Source: Verrucomicrobiota bacterium JB022 | GTDB taxonomy: Bacteria > Verrucomicrobiota > Verrucomicrobiia > Opitutales > Oceanipulchritudinaceae | Length of the DNA stretch: 64,000 nucleotides | NCBI GenBank assembly: GCA_030673845.1 | Contig: JAUTCQ010000013.1 | Location: 40,001 to 104,000, forward strand | Direction: 5' to 3' | Shown here: piece after piece, positions 14,208-63,007 of the stretch | Layout of the letters: every line of letters starts with the position of its first letter | Position numbering within the stretch: the stretch's first letter is position 1 | Made by a program: the position numbers and the translations under genes | The notes under the pieces: model-generated | The model's database searches: none | Seen by the model: the letters and a program-made list of their open reading frames with translations, nothing else | What the model was told of the DNA's origin: nothing

Positions 14208-14285
14208 CGGGGCGTAGCGCAGTCTGGCTAGCGCATCTGCTTTGGGAGCAGAGGGTCGCAGGTTCGAATCCTGTCGCCCCGACCA
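14208..14285 (+). tRNA. tRNA-Pro (anticodon UGG)
   Basis: A full cloverleaf can be drawn: acceptor CGGGGCG/CGCCCCG, D stem GCGC/GCGC, anticodon stem TCTGC/GCAGA with loop TTTGGGA (TGG at 14243-14245), five-base variable loop, T stem GCAGG/CCTGT with loop TTCGAAT, discriminator A and an encoded CCA. No tRNA neighbours, and no second copy of its 3' end that would mark an integrated element in this window. Confidence 0.97.
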
Positions 14286-34511: not shown

Positions 34512-35219
34512 ATGCTTCACCGACCGGCACGGCCCCTGCCCCGTAGCACGGAGCTGGAACCCCTCATGTATCGCCACCTGGGCTGGGAAAGCCAGGAAAT
34601 GGGCTGGATCCACCTTACCCTGATACCCCAGCGCGTGGAGGGCGACCTGTGGCGCGACCTCAGCGCAGAGCTGCAGGGCCTGCACGCTGCCATTCAGGAT
34701 GGTGCGAAGCTGGGGCCACTGGCCCGCATCGGCCGCCCACAAGGCCGCATCAACCGGCACCTCGCCTCCACCCTACTGCTGGAGCTGCATACGCTGGAGC
34801 AGATGGAGGGTGCGCTGCCCCCGCTCGCCCGCCGCCGTCTGACTAGCCGCGACGATCTCGACACGCTCCGCCAACAGGCCCAGCAGGTCCTGCACATGAA
34901 TGCGGTCGGGACTGGCCAGCACTGGATCCGCCGCCGGATTCAACGAGATCAGGAGACGATCAACTTCCACCTCGGGCGCCTCGTGGTGCGGGTGCGCGAG
35001 CGGGCTCTGCGCATGGCCGAGCTGCGCCTCAGCCGCTCCGACACCGAGAGCTTTCAGGGCTTCAAGCCCCGCGAACTCCCTCCCCGCGTCTCCGAACTCG
35101 CCACTTCCCCCCATCAAACGGTGCGCTGGCGCCGCCCGCAGCAGCAGTACAACCGAGCCCTGCGTGCCGCCACCACCGAGATCCACGACCTGTTGCGCTG
35201 GATCGACCAATTGAGCTGA
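34512..35219 (+). CDS. hypothetical protein in the glycan cluster
   Basis: 235-residue, Arg/Leu/Gln-rich, mostly helical protein with no signal peptide and no clear membrane helix. Notable segments are RIGRPQGRINRHLASTLLLE, a WIRRRIQRDQE helix and a C-terminal RWRRPQQQYNRAL. I do not recognise a family. It starts 12 bp after the GT2 gene and ends 10 bp before a GT4 gene, so it is surely in the same transcript and may be an accessory factor of the glycan machinery. Codon use looks like its neighbours. Confidence 0.7.
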   Translation: MLHRPARPLPRSTELEPLMYRHLGWESQEMGWIHLTLIPQRVEGDLWRDLSAELQGLHAAIQDGAKLGPLARIGRPQGRINRHLASTLLLELHTLEQMEGALPPLARRRLTSRDDLDTLRQQAQQVLHMNAVGTGQHWIRRRIQRDQETINFHLGRLVVRVRERALRMAELRLSRSDTESFQGFKPRELPPRVSELATSPHQTVRWRRPQQQYNRALRAATTEIHDLLRWIDQLS

Positions 35220-35229
35220 CTCTCTCCCC

Positions 35230-36276
35230 ATGCGTATCGCTATTGCTACGACCCAAGTGCCTTTTGTGCGCGGCGGTGCCGAGATCCACGCCGAATCGCT
35301 GTTGCAAGCCCTGCGTGAGGCCGGCCACCAGGCCGAGATCGTCGCCATCCCCTTCAAGTGGTATCCGCCCGAACAGATCATGGACCACCTGCTCGCGTGT
35401 CGCTTGCTCGACCTCAGCGAAAGCTGCGGCGACCGGATCGACCGCGTGATCGGCCTCAAGTTCCCGGCCTACCACATCCAGCACCCGCACAAGACGCTCT
35501 GGGTGCTGCACCAGTACCGCAGCGCCTTCGACCTCTGGGGCCTCGACGATTGCGACCTCGCGCACTTCCCACATGGCCGCGAAGTGTGTGAAGCCATCCG
35601 CACGACCGAAGATCACTTGCTGAACGAGGCTCGCGGCCTGTACGCCAACAGCAAAAACGTGGCCGACCGGCTCCAGCGCTTTTGCCAACGCGAGGCCGAG
35701 CCCCTCTACCACCCCCCGCGCGGCGCGGACAAGTTTTACCACCGCGAGGCCGAAGACTTCCTTTACTTCCCCAGCCGCCTCAACGCCCTCAAGCGCCAGA
35801 GCCTCGTGGTCAAGGCGCTCGCACACACCAAAGAGCCCGTAAAGGTCCACTTTGCCGGTGCGCCCGAAGGCCCCGAGATCATGCAACAACTGATCGAGCT
35901 GGCCGAGCGCTGCCGCGTGAGCGACCGCATCGTGTGGCATGGCCGCGTGACCGATGAGGCGATGCTCGAGGGCTATGCGCGCTGCCGGGGCGTGCTTTTT
36001 ACCCCGGTGGATGAGGATTATGGCTACATCACGCTCGAAGCCTGCCTTTCGCACAAGCCGGTGATTACCTGCACCGACAGTGGCGGGCCGCTCGAGTTTG
36101 TGCGCCACCGCGAAAACGGCTGGGTCGCCGACCCGACGCCGGAGAGCCTGGCACAAGGCATGGACTACTTGTGGCGCGAGAAGGCCTGGGCGGCCGAAGC
36201 GGGGCAAAAGGCGCACCAGACCTACCTCGACCTCAATATCAACTGGCCCCACGTCATTTCCAAGCTGCTGGCATGA
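35230..36276 (+). CDS. GT4-family glycosyltransferase
   Basis: 348-residue GT-B enzyme. IATTQVPFVRGGAEIHAESL is the N-terminal acceptor loop; the C-terminal domain has FLYFPSRLNALKRQSLVV, VWHGRVTDEAMLEGY, TPVDEDYGYITLEACL (donor-site glutamates) and TDSGGPLEFV. Its final ATGA overlaps the next GT gene, part of a run of three coupled glycosyltransferases. Confidence 0.88.
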   Translation: MRIAIATTQVPFVRGGAEIHAESLLQALREAGHQAEIVAIPFKWYPPEQIMDHLLACRLLDLSESCGDRIDRVIGLKFPAYHIQHPHKTLWVLHQYRSAFDLWGLDDCDLAHFPHGREVCEAIRTTEDHLLNEARGLYANSKNVADRLQRFCQREAEPLYHPPRGADKFYHREAEDFLYFPSRLNALKRQSLVVKALAHTKEPVKVHFAGAPEGPEIMQQLIELAERCRVSDRIVWHGRVTDEAMLEGYARCRGVLFTPVDEDYGYITLEACLSHKPVITCTDSGGPLEFVRHRENGWVADPTPESLAQGMDYLWREKAWAAEAGQKAHQTYLDLNINWPHVISKLLA

Positions 36277-43546: not shown

Positions 43547-43812
43547 CTGGCACCCAAAGGGTGCAGTCCTAGGGGCAACGTATCCCGGAAGTCTTCGCTC
43601 CGCTCGACATCCGGCTAGATCGCTTACACCCTGACGGGTGCCATCCAGCAGCGTTCACAGAGGCAAAAAACACCGTTTGCAGCAGGTCGACGAGCTACCT
43701 TTCTCCCTCGGACCCCAAGCATCCGCAGGATGCCAGCCGCTAGCCGTGATGTCGCCGCAGGCGACTTCCGGATCCGCAGCATGAAGCCTATGCACCCCGC
43801 ATGGGGTGCCAG
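43547..43812. repeat. hairpin-array element A, bounded by inverted hairpin ends
   Basis: Fills the 304-bp gap between two genes. Short hairpins with 3-4 base loops: GCACCC/GGGTGC (43550-43564), CACCC/GGGTG (43627-43640), GCATCC/GGATGC (43719-43733), GTCGCC/GGCGAC (43751-43765) and GCACCCC/GGGGTGC (43792-43809). The outer two are inverted copies of each other (CTGGCACCC at the left, GGGTGCCAG at the right). The module GCATCC-loop-GGATGCCAGC-x-TAGCCG is shared with element B at 60459-60685. Confidence 0.8.
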
Positions 43813-59649: not shown

Positions 59650-60396
59650 ATGTACGAGCTCCTTTACTTCCTCCAGCTTGCGCTGACGGTTTACGCCCTC
59701 TACCACGCCTTCCGGCATGGCGCACCCTGGTGGTGGTTCCTGCTCATCTTTTTCTTCCAGCCGCTGGGCGCGATCATCTACCTCGTGGTGGAAGTATTGC
59801 CGGGGATGCGCGCGCAAAACAACCAGGTGCGCATGGCCAGTGCGCATCGCTCCGAGCCGACCAAATCCGACGTAAAATCTCTGCGTCGACAGGCCGAGGA
59901 AACGCCTACGCCGCGCAATTACGCCCTGCTGGCCGATGCCCTCGCCCGCAACGGCGAGCCGGAAGAAGCCGTGCGCCTTTATCGCGAAGAGTGCCTGCAC
60001 GGCCACAACGCGACCGATGCCGAGCTGCTGGAAGGCCTCGTGCGGGCCCAACTGGCGGCCAAGGACGGCCCCGGTGCGCTCGATACGCTCGACCGCATCC
60101 CCGACCAAGGCATCTCCGCCGAAAAGCAGGAGCGCCAGCTGTTGCGAGGGCGCGCGCTGATGCTGGCCGAGCGGAATGAGGAGGCGCTCGCTCTGCTGGA
60201 GCAGCTCGTGACCGTCTACCCCGGCGAAGAGGCCCGCGTCTGCCTCGGCGAAACGCAGGCCAAGCTCGGCCAGAGCGAAAAAGCCCGGGAGACCTTTCAG
60301 GAAGTGATCCGCAACGTGCGCCGCCTCAAGGGCAACTGGCGCCAGCGGCAAGTGACCTTCCTCCGGCGCGCCCAGCGAGGGTTGAAGAGCCTGTAG
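59650..60396 (+). CDS. membrane-anchored TPR-repeat protein
   Basis: 248-residue protein with two membrane helices at the N-terminus (about 3-20 and 24-50; HGAPWWWFLLIFFFQPLGAI), resembling the PLDc_N-type anchor, followed by about four TPR-like helix pairs (ARNGEPEEAVRLYREECL, AERNEEALALLEQLV, LGQSEKARETFQEVI). It may scaffold protein complexes on the inner membrane. Just 12 bp downstream of the exonuclease. Confidence 0.75.
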   Translation: MYELLYFLQLALTVYALYHAFRHGAPWWWFLLIFFFQPLGAIIYLVVEVLPGMRAQNNQVRMASAHRSEPTKSDVKSLRRQAEETPTPRNYALLADALARNGEPEEAVRLYREECLHGHNATDAELLEGLVRAQLAAKDGPGALDTLDRIPDQGISAEKQERQLLRGRALMLAERNEEALALLEQLVTVYPGEEARVCLGETQAKLGQSEKARETFQEVIRNVRRLKGNWRQRQVTFLRRAQRGLKSL

Positions 60397-60458
60397 CGGC
60401 TTATTGAGTGGACAAAGACGGAGCCTTATTCACCACACGCGAGCTTTTATTTACACCA

Positions 60459-60685
60459 CAGTGGCACCCATCTGGGGTGCATTCTTGATCCTTAGAAATC
60501 CCGGAGTGTCGGTCCGCTACTGCGGACCTCAACCCCGCGCTGAGAGCTGGCAAGCCTTTGGCTTGCTGGATGATGCAGCATCCCGGAGGGATGCCAGCAA
60601 GATAGCCGGTGGTTGAGGACGCTTGGCGTCCGACACCACCGGATAGTTTCGAACCAGAGTTTGCACCCTGGAAGGGTGCCACTGC
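60459..60685. repeat. hairpin-array element B with terminal inverted repeats
   Basis: Lies in the 430-bp gap between TPR and glycosidase genes. Ends 60459-60481 and 60663-60685 are inverted copies of each other (19 of 23 positions). Inside are hairpins GGTCCGC/GCGGACC, GCAAGCC/GGCTTGC, GCATCCC/GGGATGC and GGACGC/GCGTCC, the last nested in GCCGGTGGT/ACCACCGG. The order GCATCCC-loop-GGGATGCCAGC-x-TAGCCGGTG repeats that of element A. The remaining sequence 60397-60458 and 60686-60826 shows nothing I can assign. Confidence 0.82.
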
Positions 60686-60826
60686 GAAAGGGCTCGCTCA
60701 AAAGGACACTAGCAGGTTTTCGGCGGGTAGATGAGGATAGCCGCCTAGCGCGTTAGGCTTGTGGCCGGTGCGGTTGGTTGCTAATATCCAGACTGTTAGC
60801 CCAACCACCCGTCGATCTCCCTTGCC

Positions 60827-63007
60827 ATGAAGTATTTTCGCCCCTGCCTCTGCCTGTTCCTCACCGGTACCCTCGGCCTTTCCGCCGCCCTCACCCCGCC
60901 CAGCTCCGACTGGAGGGACTACACCGCCTCCCAGCACCCCGACCTCGCCACCATGCGCTGGATGGGCTCGGGTGAAGATTTCTGGCCTTGGATCTGGTGG
61001 TACCCGCAGCTCAAGTGGATCTACCTCGACCACCAGGGCACCAGCGCAAGCGATCCCTACCGCTTCTGGGCAGGGCTGCTGCATCACGACCTGCTCTACG
61101 CCTACACCAGCCCGGAGGTGACGCTGCCCGGCGGCCTCTTGCCCGGCGCAAAGTTCCGACTCGCCCGCGATCCCGCCGCCACCGACCGTTTTCTCGACCT
61201 CGGCGTCTACCACTGGCGCGACGCCTTCATCGAGGTCGCGATCAACGACGTGGTGGTCCGCCGCCGCCAGATCGAGGCCTGGGAGCCCGCCTATTTCCAC
61301 CTCGACCTCTATTACTTCGACGCCGGCATCATCCCGCCCGCCAGCGACGGCCAGTTGCGCATCGTCGTCCGCCAGACCACGACCGAAGACCTTGACCCGA
61401 CCGATGGTATTCCTGATTCCGGGGACACACTGCCGCTGCACAGTATCCCGCTCGTGGCGCTCGACCACCGCGACACGCACCTCCCCGCCTACCGTGCCCA
61501 CGAGAAAGACGCCCTCGTGGAGGCCTACGAAGACACCTTGGCCGAAGGCGGGCGCTGGGGCTCCAATTCCCACCTCTTCGCGCCCAATGAAGGCTTCCTG
61601 AGCCTCGACGGCGTCCACCGCAACCGGTACCCCACGGGGCACTACACGCCGTATACGGTTTTCGACTATATCGACGAGCTGGCGCGTAATTCCGAGGCGA
61701 TGGACGCCGGCTCGTTCCGCCCCTGGGGCTATCCCTCGCTCGCGCAATATCCCGCCCCCGGCAGCGATCCCCGCGACTCGGTGGAGCCGATCAACCTCTA
61801 CGCCCAGGACCAGTTTTACGAGCAGATGCTGGAACGCGGCATCCCGGCAGTAGGCACCGTCGTGCCTCCCACATTCCACCCCAGCGTGACATATACCGAC
61901 AACGGCCAGACCGTAAGCCTGCCCGTGCTCGACGAAACGACCGTGCGCACGCACTACGCGACCGATTGGCCCACCGGCACCAACTTCCTGATCGACAACC
62001 CCACCCGCCTGGCCGACACCGGCGAATGGGTGCGCTATGAGGTGGGCCTCATCTTCAACGGCCAGAACCAGTTGCTCGACGGCCAGACGACCTTTTACTT
62101 TTACGCGCCCGACGGCACGGCCTACTTTGGCAACGGCCCCGTCATCAGCCCCACCGACCCGACCCGCATGCGCATCTGGCTCTTCGAGGGCGCCGACACG
62201 ATCCCCGCCCTCGATACCACGGCTTACCACACCGCCTACCTGCAGCCGTGGGACGCCGAGCGTATCCTGACCCGCCTCAGCAATCAGGGCTACTCGTTCT
62301 TTGCCCACGACGAGGCGCTGCGCATCCCTCTCTTTTTCGTGCGCCGCTACCAGCACAGCGTGCCTGCCTGGGAGTTTGGCAACGAGCCCGATATCACCCC
62401 GCTCTTCTGGGATGCCTCTGGCGACACCATGCGCGCCGAAGCCCGCGCCGACTTCTTTGCCTGGCTCGACGCGCTCCTGACCGATCCCGCCACCGCCACG
62501 CAACACGTCTCCGCCGGTGCCTTCGCCGATGTCTCCAGCCTCATCACCGTCTACGGCGCGCCCGGCGGTGCCTTCCCCACCCTCCTCGACGGCCTGGAAG
62601 CCCGTGCGCTCGACGCCCTCAGCTTTCACCACTACTGGCGGGCGGACCGGCAGAACTACCTCAACTTCCTCTCTCGCCTGCAAAACGAAGCGCTCTACCT
62701 GCTCGACTATACCACCCGCCCCCTCGTGCTCTCCGAGATCGGCTACCTCGACTATGGCACGCTGGATGGCATTGCCGCGCAGCCTTACCTGATCCGCGAC
62801 GTGGACGACCTGGTGGTCGACGCCCCCACCTACGGCGTCCATCACGCCCAGCTCTACGTGGGCAACGGCGAGAACTGGATGATCTACTTCGAGCCCTGGA
62901 GCGGCTGGCACGCGAGCGCCCCCTATCAGCTGACCAACGACGGCATCGACATCGTCTCGCAGCCCAACCAGCCCTTCCTCGACCAATTCCTCGATGCGCA
63001 GGATTGA
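60827..63007 (+). CDS. exported protein with clan GH-A-like glycosidase features
   Basis: 726-residue protein with a signal peptide (about 1-22, LGLSAAL). A beta-rich N-terminal part (to about 200) leads to a TIM-barrel-like region holding AWEFGNEPD (Glu520, acid/base candidate), ALSFHHYWR and VLSEIGYLDYG (Glu637, nucleophile candidate). The 117-residue spacing and Asn-Glu-Pro motif are typical of clan GH-A (GH5, GH39, GH51 and relatives). I cannot place it in a known family. It stands alone, with no sugar transporter nearby. Confidence 0.65.
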   Translation: MKYFRPCLCLFLTGTLGLSAALTPPSSDWRDYTASQHPDLATMRWMGSGEDFWPWIWWYPQLKWIYLDHQGTSASDPYRFWAGLLHHDLLYAYTSPEVTLPGGLLPGAKFRLARDPAATDRFLDLGVYHWRDAFIEVAINDVVVRRRQIEAWEPAYFHLDLYYFDAGIIPPASDGQLRIVVRQTTTEDLDPTDGIPDSGDTLPLHSIPLVALDHRDTHLPAYRAHEKDALVEAYEDTLAEGGRWGSNSHLFAPNEGFLSLDGVHRNRYPTGHYTPYTVFDYIDELARNSEAMDAGSFRPWGYPSLAQYPAPGSDPRDSVEPINLYAQDQFYEQMLERGIPAVGTVVPPTFHPSVTYTDNGQTVSLPVLDETTVRTHYATDWPTGTNFLIDNPTRLADTGEWVRYEVGLIFNGQNQLLDGQTTFYFYAPDGTAYFGNGPVISPTDPTRMRIWLFEGADTIPALDTTAYHTAYLQPWDAERILTRLSNQGYSFFAHDEALRIPLFFVRRYQHSVPAWEFGNEPDITPLFWDASGDTMRAEARADFFAWLDALLTDPATATQHVSAGAFADVSSLITVYGAPGGAFPTLLDGLEARALDALSFHHYWRADRQNYLNFLSRLQNEALYLLDYTTRPLVLSEIGYLDYGTLDGIAAQPYLIRDVDDLVVDAPTYGVHHAQLYVGNGENWMIYFEPWSGWHASAPYQLTNDGIDIVSQPNQPFLDQFLDAQD

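Follow-up and report, generated by a model that had tools for sequence, protein, structure and literature searches.

The locus and its element

The window, a 64,000-nt stretch of contig JAUTCQ010000013.1 of Verrucomicrobiota bacterium JB022, holds a strongly folded element placed between an open reading frame of 248 amino acids, whose TAG stop codon occupies 60394-60396, and a second one with its start at 60827 (Table 1). An earlier note had described 60459-60685 as an element of 227 bp with terminal inverted repeats that each fold on themselves and with four further hairpins of 3-4 base loops between them, and this architecture was recovered: the arms at 60459-60481 and 60662-60684 are inverted over 23 nt with 87% complementarity, and six perfect-stem hairpins lie in the region. 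The 227 bp proved to be the core of the element but too narrow as its extent, as conserved arms reach 60394 and 60711 (~318 bp). These tips lie 67 and 29 nt beyond the outer hairpins, at the two arm lengths that occur most often among the copies. The folding energy departs from that of shuffled sequences by z = -12.35 on the + strand and -10.23 on the - strand, with 0 of 200 shuffles as good on each strand. Short open reading frames crossing 60459-60685 were taken as spurious.

Table 1. Positions of the features described in the text, numbered within the window.
Feature	Positions	Strand	Basis
Whole element, tip to tip	60394-60711		Tip pattern at 60394-60413 (+) and 60692-60711 (-), 3 mismatches each
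TAG at left tip, stop of ORF 59650-60396 (TPR protein)	60394-60396	+	ORF list, tip score, position test
Left half-unit, inner to outer on the - strand	60461-60566	-	Covariance model R1, 102.5 bits (copy in R1's own training alignment)
Right half-unit, inner to outer on the + strand	60578-60682	+	Covariance model R1, 97.9 bits (copy in R1's own training alignment)
11-bp centre separating the half-units	60567-60577		Equal length in 21 of 27 back-to-back pairs
Left REP: foot CAGC, stem GCGGGG, TTGAG, stem GTCCGC ... CGACA	60499-60542	-	Pattern search; compensatory stem changes
Right REP: foot ATAGC, stem CGGTGG, TTGAG, stem GACGC ... CGACA, CCACCGG	60603-60643	+	Pattern search; compensatory changes
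Left outer hairpin, perfect stem 6, loop 5	60464-60480		Stem scan
Hairpin, perfect stem 7, loop 4	60511-60528		Stem scan
Left inner hairpin GCAAGCC/GGCTTGC, stem 7, loop 3	60550-60566		Stem scan; paired changes against right half
Right inner hairpin GCATCCC/GGGATGC, stem 7, loop 3	60578-60594		Stem scan; paired changes against left half
Hairpin, perfect stem 6, loop 3	60617-60631		Stem scan
Right outer hairpin, perfect stem 7, loop 3	60663-60679		Stem scan
Second, diverged element of the other family	43547-43812	half-units 43547-43641 (-), 43719-43812 (+)	R1, 29.3 and 30.3 bits

A dispersed family of paired half-units

A BLAST search of the JB022 genome (4.35 Mb, a draft of 25 contigs, 97.34% complete) with the element yielded at least 49 match rows (40 of the 49 candidates scored), about 14 of which span almost the whole element; because its sequence is close to a palindrome, certain sites appear among these rows on both strands. 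The two halves of the element represent a single unit of about 105 nt in opposite orientations. In collecting this half-unit, a regular expression gave 54 matches, from which two judged to be coding and two without a matching inner or outer hairpin were dropped; two of the remaining 50 were trimmed by four bases before alignment, and the alignment (A1) was used to build covariance model R1. A genome scan with R1, in which 150 of 2398 candidates were scored, detected at least 79 half-units (E <= 1e-3), and here as in all whole-genome searches the copy counts are lower bounds. Fifty-four of the 79 matches form 27 back-to-back pairs with inner sides facing, 21 of which are exactly 11 bp apart, and close pairs with outer sides facing are absent among the own-genome half-unit matches found by R1. 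The further copies with the same ends that the earlier note proposed to look for by BLASTN are thus present in number, with conserved tips. Phage and plasmid collections searched with 60300-60800 gave no match, and so no sign of spread by vectors in those collections.

Read from the centre outwards, a half-unit consists of an inner hairpin, a foot, the REP and an outer hairpin. The lower and upper stems of the REP are parted by a nearly constant TTGAG/CGACA internal loop, around which whole-stem alternatives occur, and the foot reads NTAGC in 46 of 50 half-units (strict GTAGC in only 6 of 50). Across the 50 half-units, 94.7% of stem cells are paired, against 84.0% for shuffled and 30-46% for slid alignments, and 14 of the 28 stem pairs have changed on both sides. 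For 106 half-units in 25 stretches of a congener (G001), the paired share is 94.4% and both partners vary in 20 of the 28 pairs, in an alignment that was fitted to R1 and hence leans towards the model. Covariation across copies, which the earlier note had put forward as a check, therefore supports the hairpin stems in both genomes. One REP, in the half-unit at L013:1501-1606, has unmatched lower-stem halves (CTGCAG with CCCCGG) and looks recombinant between two stem types.

Transposase genes flanked by half-units

The JB022 genome contains three Y1_Tnp matches, of which two are strong, a gene on contig C6 and a gene on contig C3. The C6 transposase (RAYT; 146 aa, L034:1486-1926) scores 61.7 bits against NF033573 IS200/IS605 (cut-off 55) and 72.9 bits against PF01797 (cut-off 23), and the C3 protein likewise exceeds both cut-offs. 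The C6 protein carries DHVH, WQ and Y-x3-Q-x2-HH, and DH[IV]H, WQ and Y---Q--HH are all present in both of these RAYT genes. The third match, at L038 (G000:C13:308500-311000), reaches 25.6 bits in an open frame of 188 aa.

On contig C6 the gene (34985-35422) lies amid half-units at 34744-34846 (-), 35441-35542 (-), 35615-35716 (-) and 35809-35916 (+), the upstream one being reversed relative to most RAYT loci. The C3 gene is flanked by a different REP family with the same three-hairpin plan; within one genome, two repeat families go with two RAYTs.

Related RAYT genes were detected in 16 of 55 genomes, the window's own included; among named genomes, a Verrucomicrobiia MAG carries the transposase's nearest relative. 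The 29 matches reduce to 27 loci after two fragment pairs are merged, and to 25 for the motif survey with two broken genes left out; among these 25, Y---Q--HH occurs in 24, DHVH or DHIH in 21 and WQ in 23, the matched length is 141-148 in 24, and the alignment is conserved in its C-terminal part. A repeat common to both flanks (E <= 1e-3) was found at 21 of the 27 loci and at 20 of the 23 intact ones left after removal of a locus whose flank spans 44 bases, the two broken genes and a partial match, while shuffled flanks shared a repeat in 1 of 540 trials.

For the R1 search the set was further reduced to 23 RAYT loci by leaving out a partial match and the C6 gene of JB022 itself. At 11 of these 23 loci a half-unit (E <= 0.1) occurs no more than 120 bp from the gene and is oriented as expected, + when upstream and - when downstream, so that its outer hairpin faces the gene; at 1 locus the orientation is the other, and at the remaining 11 there is none in that range. 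In a scan of named genomes, a half-unit stands beside the RAYT at 3 of 3 loci: one in the Verrucomicrobiia MAG, with half-units on both sides (61.2 and 54.9 bits), and two on separate contigs of one Planctomycetaceae MAG, where they are weak (17-20 bits, one-sided in one of the two). The hairpins are visible in the printed sequences of half-units beside RAYT genes in other genomes. Half-units accordingly flank RAYT genes in the own genome, the congener, some further genomes of its order, the Verrucomicrobiia MAG and, weakly, the planctomycete.

Relatives and array phase

A plain-DNA search matched 4 of 55 genomes, the own one included, with at most 14 candidates scored per genome. R1 matched 10 of 50, again including the own genome; with 79 candidates scored per relative, the counts were at least 79 in G001 (all those scored), 41 in G037, 30 in G011 and 1-7 in the others. 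A RAYT match accompanies 7 of the 10 R1-positive genomes as against 8 of the 40 R1-negative ones, and the R1-positive genomes without one are G014, G033 and G046.

In G001 the tight pair has its outer sides facing, with a gap of 25-26 bp for 19 of the 28 (+/-) neighbours, and inner sides lie 35-324 bp apart in 35 (-/+) neighbours, counts to be read with the 25 stretches having been picked around matches and one array-rich contig supplying many pairs. The alternating array is thus the same in the two species but has been amplified in opposite phases. Two wide outer-to-outer gaps in G001, of 512 and 466 bp, hold RAYT genes (L151 and L155). At these two loci, on G001 contigs C27 and C14, alternating half-unit arrays surround the RAYT, with the tight pair outer-to-outer.

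Tips, stop codons and empty sites

The arms beyond the outer hairpins end in (C)TAGTGTC. Tips were recognised at 25 ends, the best-scoring of 60, of which 23 have p <= 0.01 and two p = 0.02-0.025 at a shuffle resolution of 1/200; their distance to the hairpin is 29 nt in 14 cases, 67-68 nt in 7 and 22-35 nt in 4. Genome-wide, the tip pattern with no more than three mismatches has 22 matches against 8 for a backward control, and 19 of the 22 are at known copies. At the three others (C2:67503, C12:34029 and C20:67843), R1 detected no half-unit.

Eleven of the 25 tips, among them the left tip of the window copy, sit precisely at the in-frame stop of a long open reading frame, compared with 8 of 3000 other positions within 60 bases. 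The 11 of 25 is biased upwards, since the tip score rewards TAG, and the left tip of L011 rests on a doubtful reading frame; the TAG bias is hardly enough to explain the difference from 8 of 3000. Stop types beside the copies (TAG 32, TAA 21, TGA 7; TAG 11, TAA 11 and TGA 14 for the 36 open reading frames of the window) were set aside as evidence, because TGA stops are often found in tight operons with no space for an insert, and the tip position test was used instead.

In order to compare occupied with empty sites, G001 was queried with 10 loci, and three of them (L011, L002 and L015) match on both flanks in one place. L011 is a clean empty site, with a single CTAG in G001, at the stop of the convergent gene, and CTAG at both ends of the insert in JB022. 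At L002 the TAG stop is conserved in G001 and the right end is degenerate in JB022, and at L015 a REP-like remnant of 12.3 bits is present in G001. The gene at L010 has strong half-units nearby in G001 as well. A 4-bp target duplication, considered as a general rule after L011, was rejected, with equal flanking 4-mers in only 1 of the 8 copies that have both tips recognised; the short target duplications to which the earlier note pointed did not emerge as a feature of the family.

Eight gene ends at which a copy starts at the stop codon in JB022 (seven with a recognised tip, plus L002, whose tip was not recognised) showed no half-unit at the G001 loci with R1. At six of the eight (L002, L004, L005, L011, L020 and L025) the stop lies at the same codon in G001, as TAG in four and TAA in two; at L001 and L012 it is one codon off and is TGA there. 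Where G001 has TAA, the JB022 stop is TAG with the tip directly behind it; the element may have supplied the last base, though the change could have gone either way. Directly outside the L014 tip, in its left flank, lies the stretch GCGGCCACTTGCTCTTGAA(A/C)TGCTCTAG, which also occurs upstream of the element at C13:323696 (left flank of L143) and is perhaps another small repeat beside CTAG.

Comparison with known systems

The element resembles the REP/BIME/REPIN and RAYT systems (REPtrons) described for E. coli, Pseudomonas and Stenotrophomonas in its foot-bearing palindrome, inverted dimers, dispersed extragenic copies and own transposase gene flanked by the repeats (PMC8266576, PMC2817692). 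The E. coli REP is portrayed in these papers as a palindrome with a 5' tetranucleotide foot and an internal bulge (PMC8266576, PMC2817692). The present element differs from REPtrons as outlined there in having three hairpins (~105 nt) per unit instead of one REP of 20-40 nt, a foot of NTAGC instead of GTAG, and a dimer whose outer arms end in CTAGTGTC. For Opitutus terrae, also of the Verrucomicrobia, a REP-rich genome with the GTAG families GTAG-17, -19 and -20 and inverted dimers has been reported (PMC3733652); these REPs are described as single stem-loops of 20-40 bp, and it is by that description only that they are set apart from the three-hairpin half-unit (PMC3733652). The same paper states that GTAG REP termini in general often supply the TAG stop of flanking open reading frames (PMC3733652), so that the stop-codon tips found here are a parallel to a published observation, not its first instance.

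Judged by their sequences, the transposases carry the key motifs of TnpAY1 subclass 1.2, and they share with it a length near 148 aa, DH[IV]H, WQ, Y---Q--HH and a low copy number (PMC6006769). This subclass is listed there with no REPs and generally no typical terminal structures, mostly in Cyanobacteria and Bacteroidetes (PMC6006769), in contrast to the genes reported here, which are flanked by structured, dispersed repeats and belong to another lineage. TIRtrons (TIR-associated tyrosine transposases) are similar in placing a RAYT-like gene between long inverted repeats, possibly a repeat family (PMC3733652), and as depicted there are unlike the present loci, whose inverted repeats hold a clear REP-like hairpin plus two more hairpins. 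The protein is a TnpA of the IS200/IS605 type by sequence, with matches to five solved transposase chains (2xm3 and 2f4f among them; E 8e-6 to 2.5e-4), and hairpins near the ends and the lack of a larger target duplication are further points in common with IS200/IS605 as summarised in PMC2817692. A low-copy gene, many gene-less derivatives and three hairpins per half-unit distinguish the present system from IS200/IS605. In the literature searched by titles and abstract openings, which covered few subscription papers, neither a three-hairpin unit nor repeats with subclass 1.2 transposases were found. An enlarged three-hairpin unit with a transposase of subclass 1.2 motifs is best filed as a RAYT-linked variant of the REP/REPIN type.

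Interpretation

The element at 60394-60711 is very probably a non-autonomous mobile unit of the REP/REPIN type, moved in single-stranded form by its RAYT. The analysis shows that half-units with three covarying hairpins are dispersed through the genome as back-to-back dimers and that like half-units flank RAYT (TnpA_Y1, HUH/tyrosine) genes. Movement by the RAYT, in single strands and towards CTAG, is inferred. What bears on movement is a single empty site (CTAG) that is clean on both flanks, and target duplication is not general in the family. Points that count against this reading are the rarity of a strict GTAGC foot, the reversed half-unit upstream of the C6 gene, the imperfect co-occurrence of half-units and RAYT matches among the 50 genomes, the degenerate end at L002 and the remnant at L015, the half-units that G001 has near the L010 gene, and the TAG bias of the tip score. 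In the proposed mechanism, the RAYT would bind the single-stranded REP hairpin, in the strand with the NTAG foot on the 5' side, cut beside a CT/CTAG site and then rejoin. Copies would insert at CTAG or CTAA. In many cases this site would be a gene's stop codon, and there the AGTGTC tip would restore a TAG stop; copies at gene 3' ends would do little harm and persist. The position of the tips at CTAG is consistent with single-strand cleavage at CT beside the REP.

The mechanisms of REP dissemination were called poorly understood in 2021 (PMC8266576). The JB022 family offers a natural test of REP spread, with two transposase-repeat pairs, empty sites in a congener, defined tips and a sharp prediction of CTAG at stop codons, and it links a subclass listed without repeats to a large, structured repeat family.

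A further-reaching reading, to which we give limited credence, holds that TnpAY1 1.2 drives a stop-codon-seeking element whose joined-end single-stranded circles insert at stop codons, solitary copies being an inside-out form. Circles would insert at the CT|AG or CT|AA of stop codons, the AGTGTC tip would restore TAG and the gene would be spared. On this view the solitary copies in JB022 would be joined-end counterparts of the unit found on either side of the transposase in G001, where the tight pair is outer-to-outer. The opposite array phases of the two genomes lead to this inside-out reading and are not proof of circles.

Apart from the RAYT-mobilised REP dimer, the element might be a classic MITE moved by a DDE transposase, with ends AGTGTC...GACACT, a CTAG (YTAR-like) duplication and the REPs as passengers. 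We regard this as improbable. The outer ends are indeed inverted and conserved, CTAG stands on both sides of the L011 insert and once in the congener, and such a 4-bp target is known for some IS families. However, L011 is the only one of the eight two-tipped copies with equal flanking 4-mers, the 22 tip-pattern matches (a search by ends in a draft genome) revealed no second, transposase-bearing set of ends, and what recurs beside RAYT genes across genera is the half-unit and not the outer arms. The earlier note's reading of a non-autonomous mobile element is supported by the many copies with the same ends, and its MITE-like type is to be amended: the ends are unlike those of a classic DDE-type MITE, and the dimer is of REP type and tied to a tyrosine (HUH) transposase.

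It is less probable still, and by our estimate very unlikely, that the element is a structured RNA or 3'-UTR module, such as a bidirectional terminator or mRNA stabiliser, kept for a function in the transcript. Strong folding and covarying stems would suit such a role, as would the setting of the copies, since the flanks of 40 elements (n = 80) comprise 60 gene 3' ends, 17 5' ends and 3 without a call, some of the 17 5' calls being wrong, such as that for the left flank of the window copy. Against it, no Rfam 15 family other than tRNA reaches its gathering score in the window, and one terminator-like site was found where 0.7 were expected, on which count a terminator reading was rejected. The tight pair of opposite phase in the congener and the arrays that surround transposase genes also speak against a transcript module.

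Wobble pairs bear on the same question. Read on the inner-to-outer strand, which is the opposite strand in the two halves, the own-genome half-units contain 35 G-T and 6 A-C cells, three misaligned pairs excluded, and the bias is present in both half types (15:5 and 20:1); the G001 alignment has G-T:A-C of 132:48. This opposite-strand bias is easier to reconcile with a protein that acts on each REP as single-stranded DNA than with a single folded transcript. The evidence is modest, since the wobble cells depend on one another and come mostly from a few columns. The structured-RNA alternative raised in the earlier note is weakened by the strand bias and the Rfam result, and an RNA role, if any, may be secondary to mobility by the RAYT.

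Finally, an origin as fossil repeats, dispersed by recombination or replication slippage and with no RAYT link today, is hardly to be credited: many copies are truncated or degenerate (partial BLAST matches; 35 of 60 ends without a recognised tip), but the 11-bp centre that is exact in 21 of 27 pairs, the recurrent arm lengths, the intact RAYT motifs and the two RAYT-repeat pairs in one genome argue otherwise.

A second element in the window

The earlier note had spoken of two copies in the window, and the second, diverged element in Table 1 may be the one meant. By eye, its REP resembles the REPs around the second transposase gene (RAYT2) on contig C3. The sole Rfam match in the window is a tRNA gene at 14208-14282. 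Both convergent genes that neighbour the second element end, also by eye, in TAG at or near its tips.
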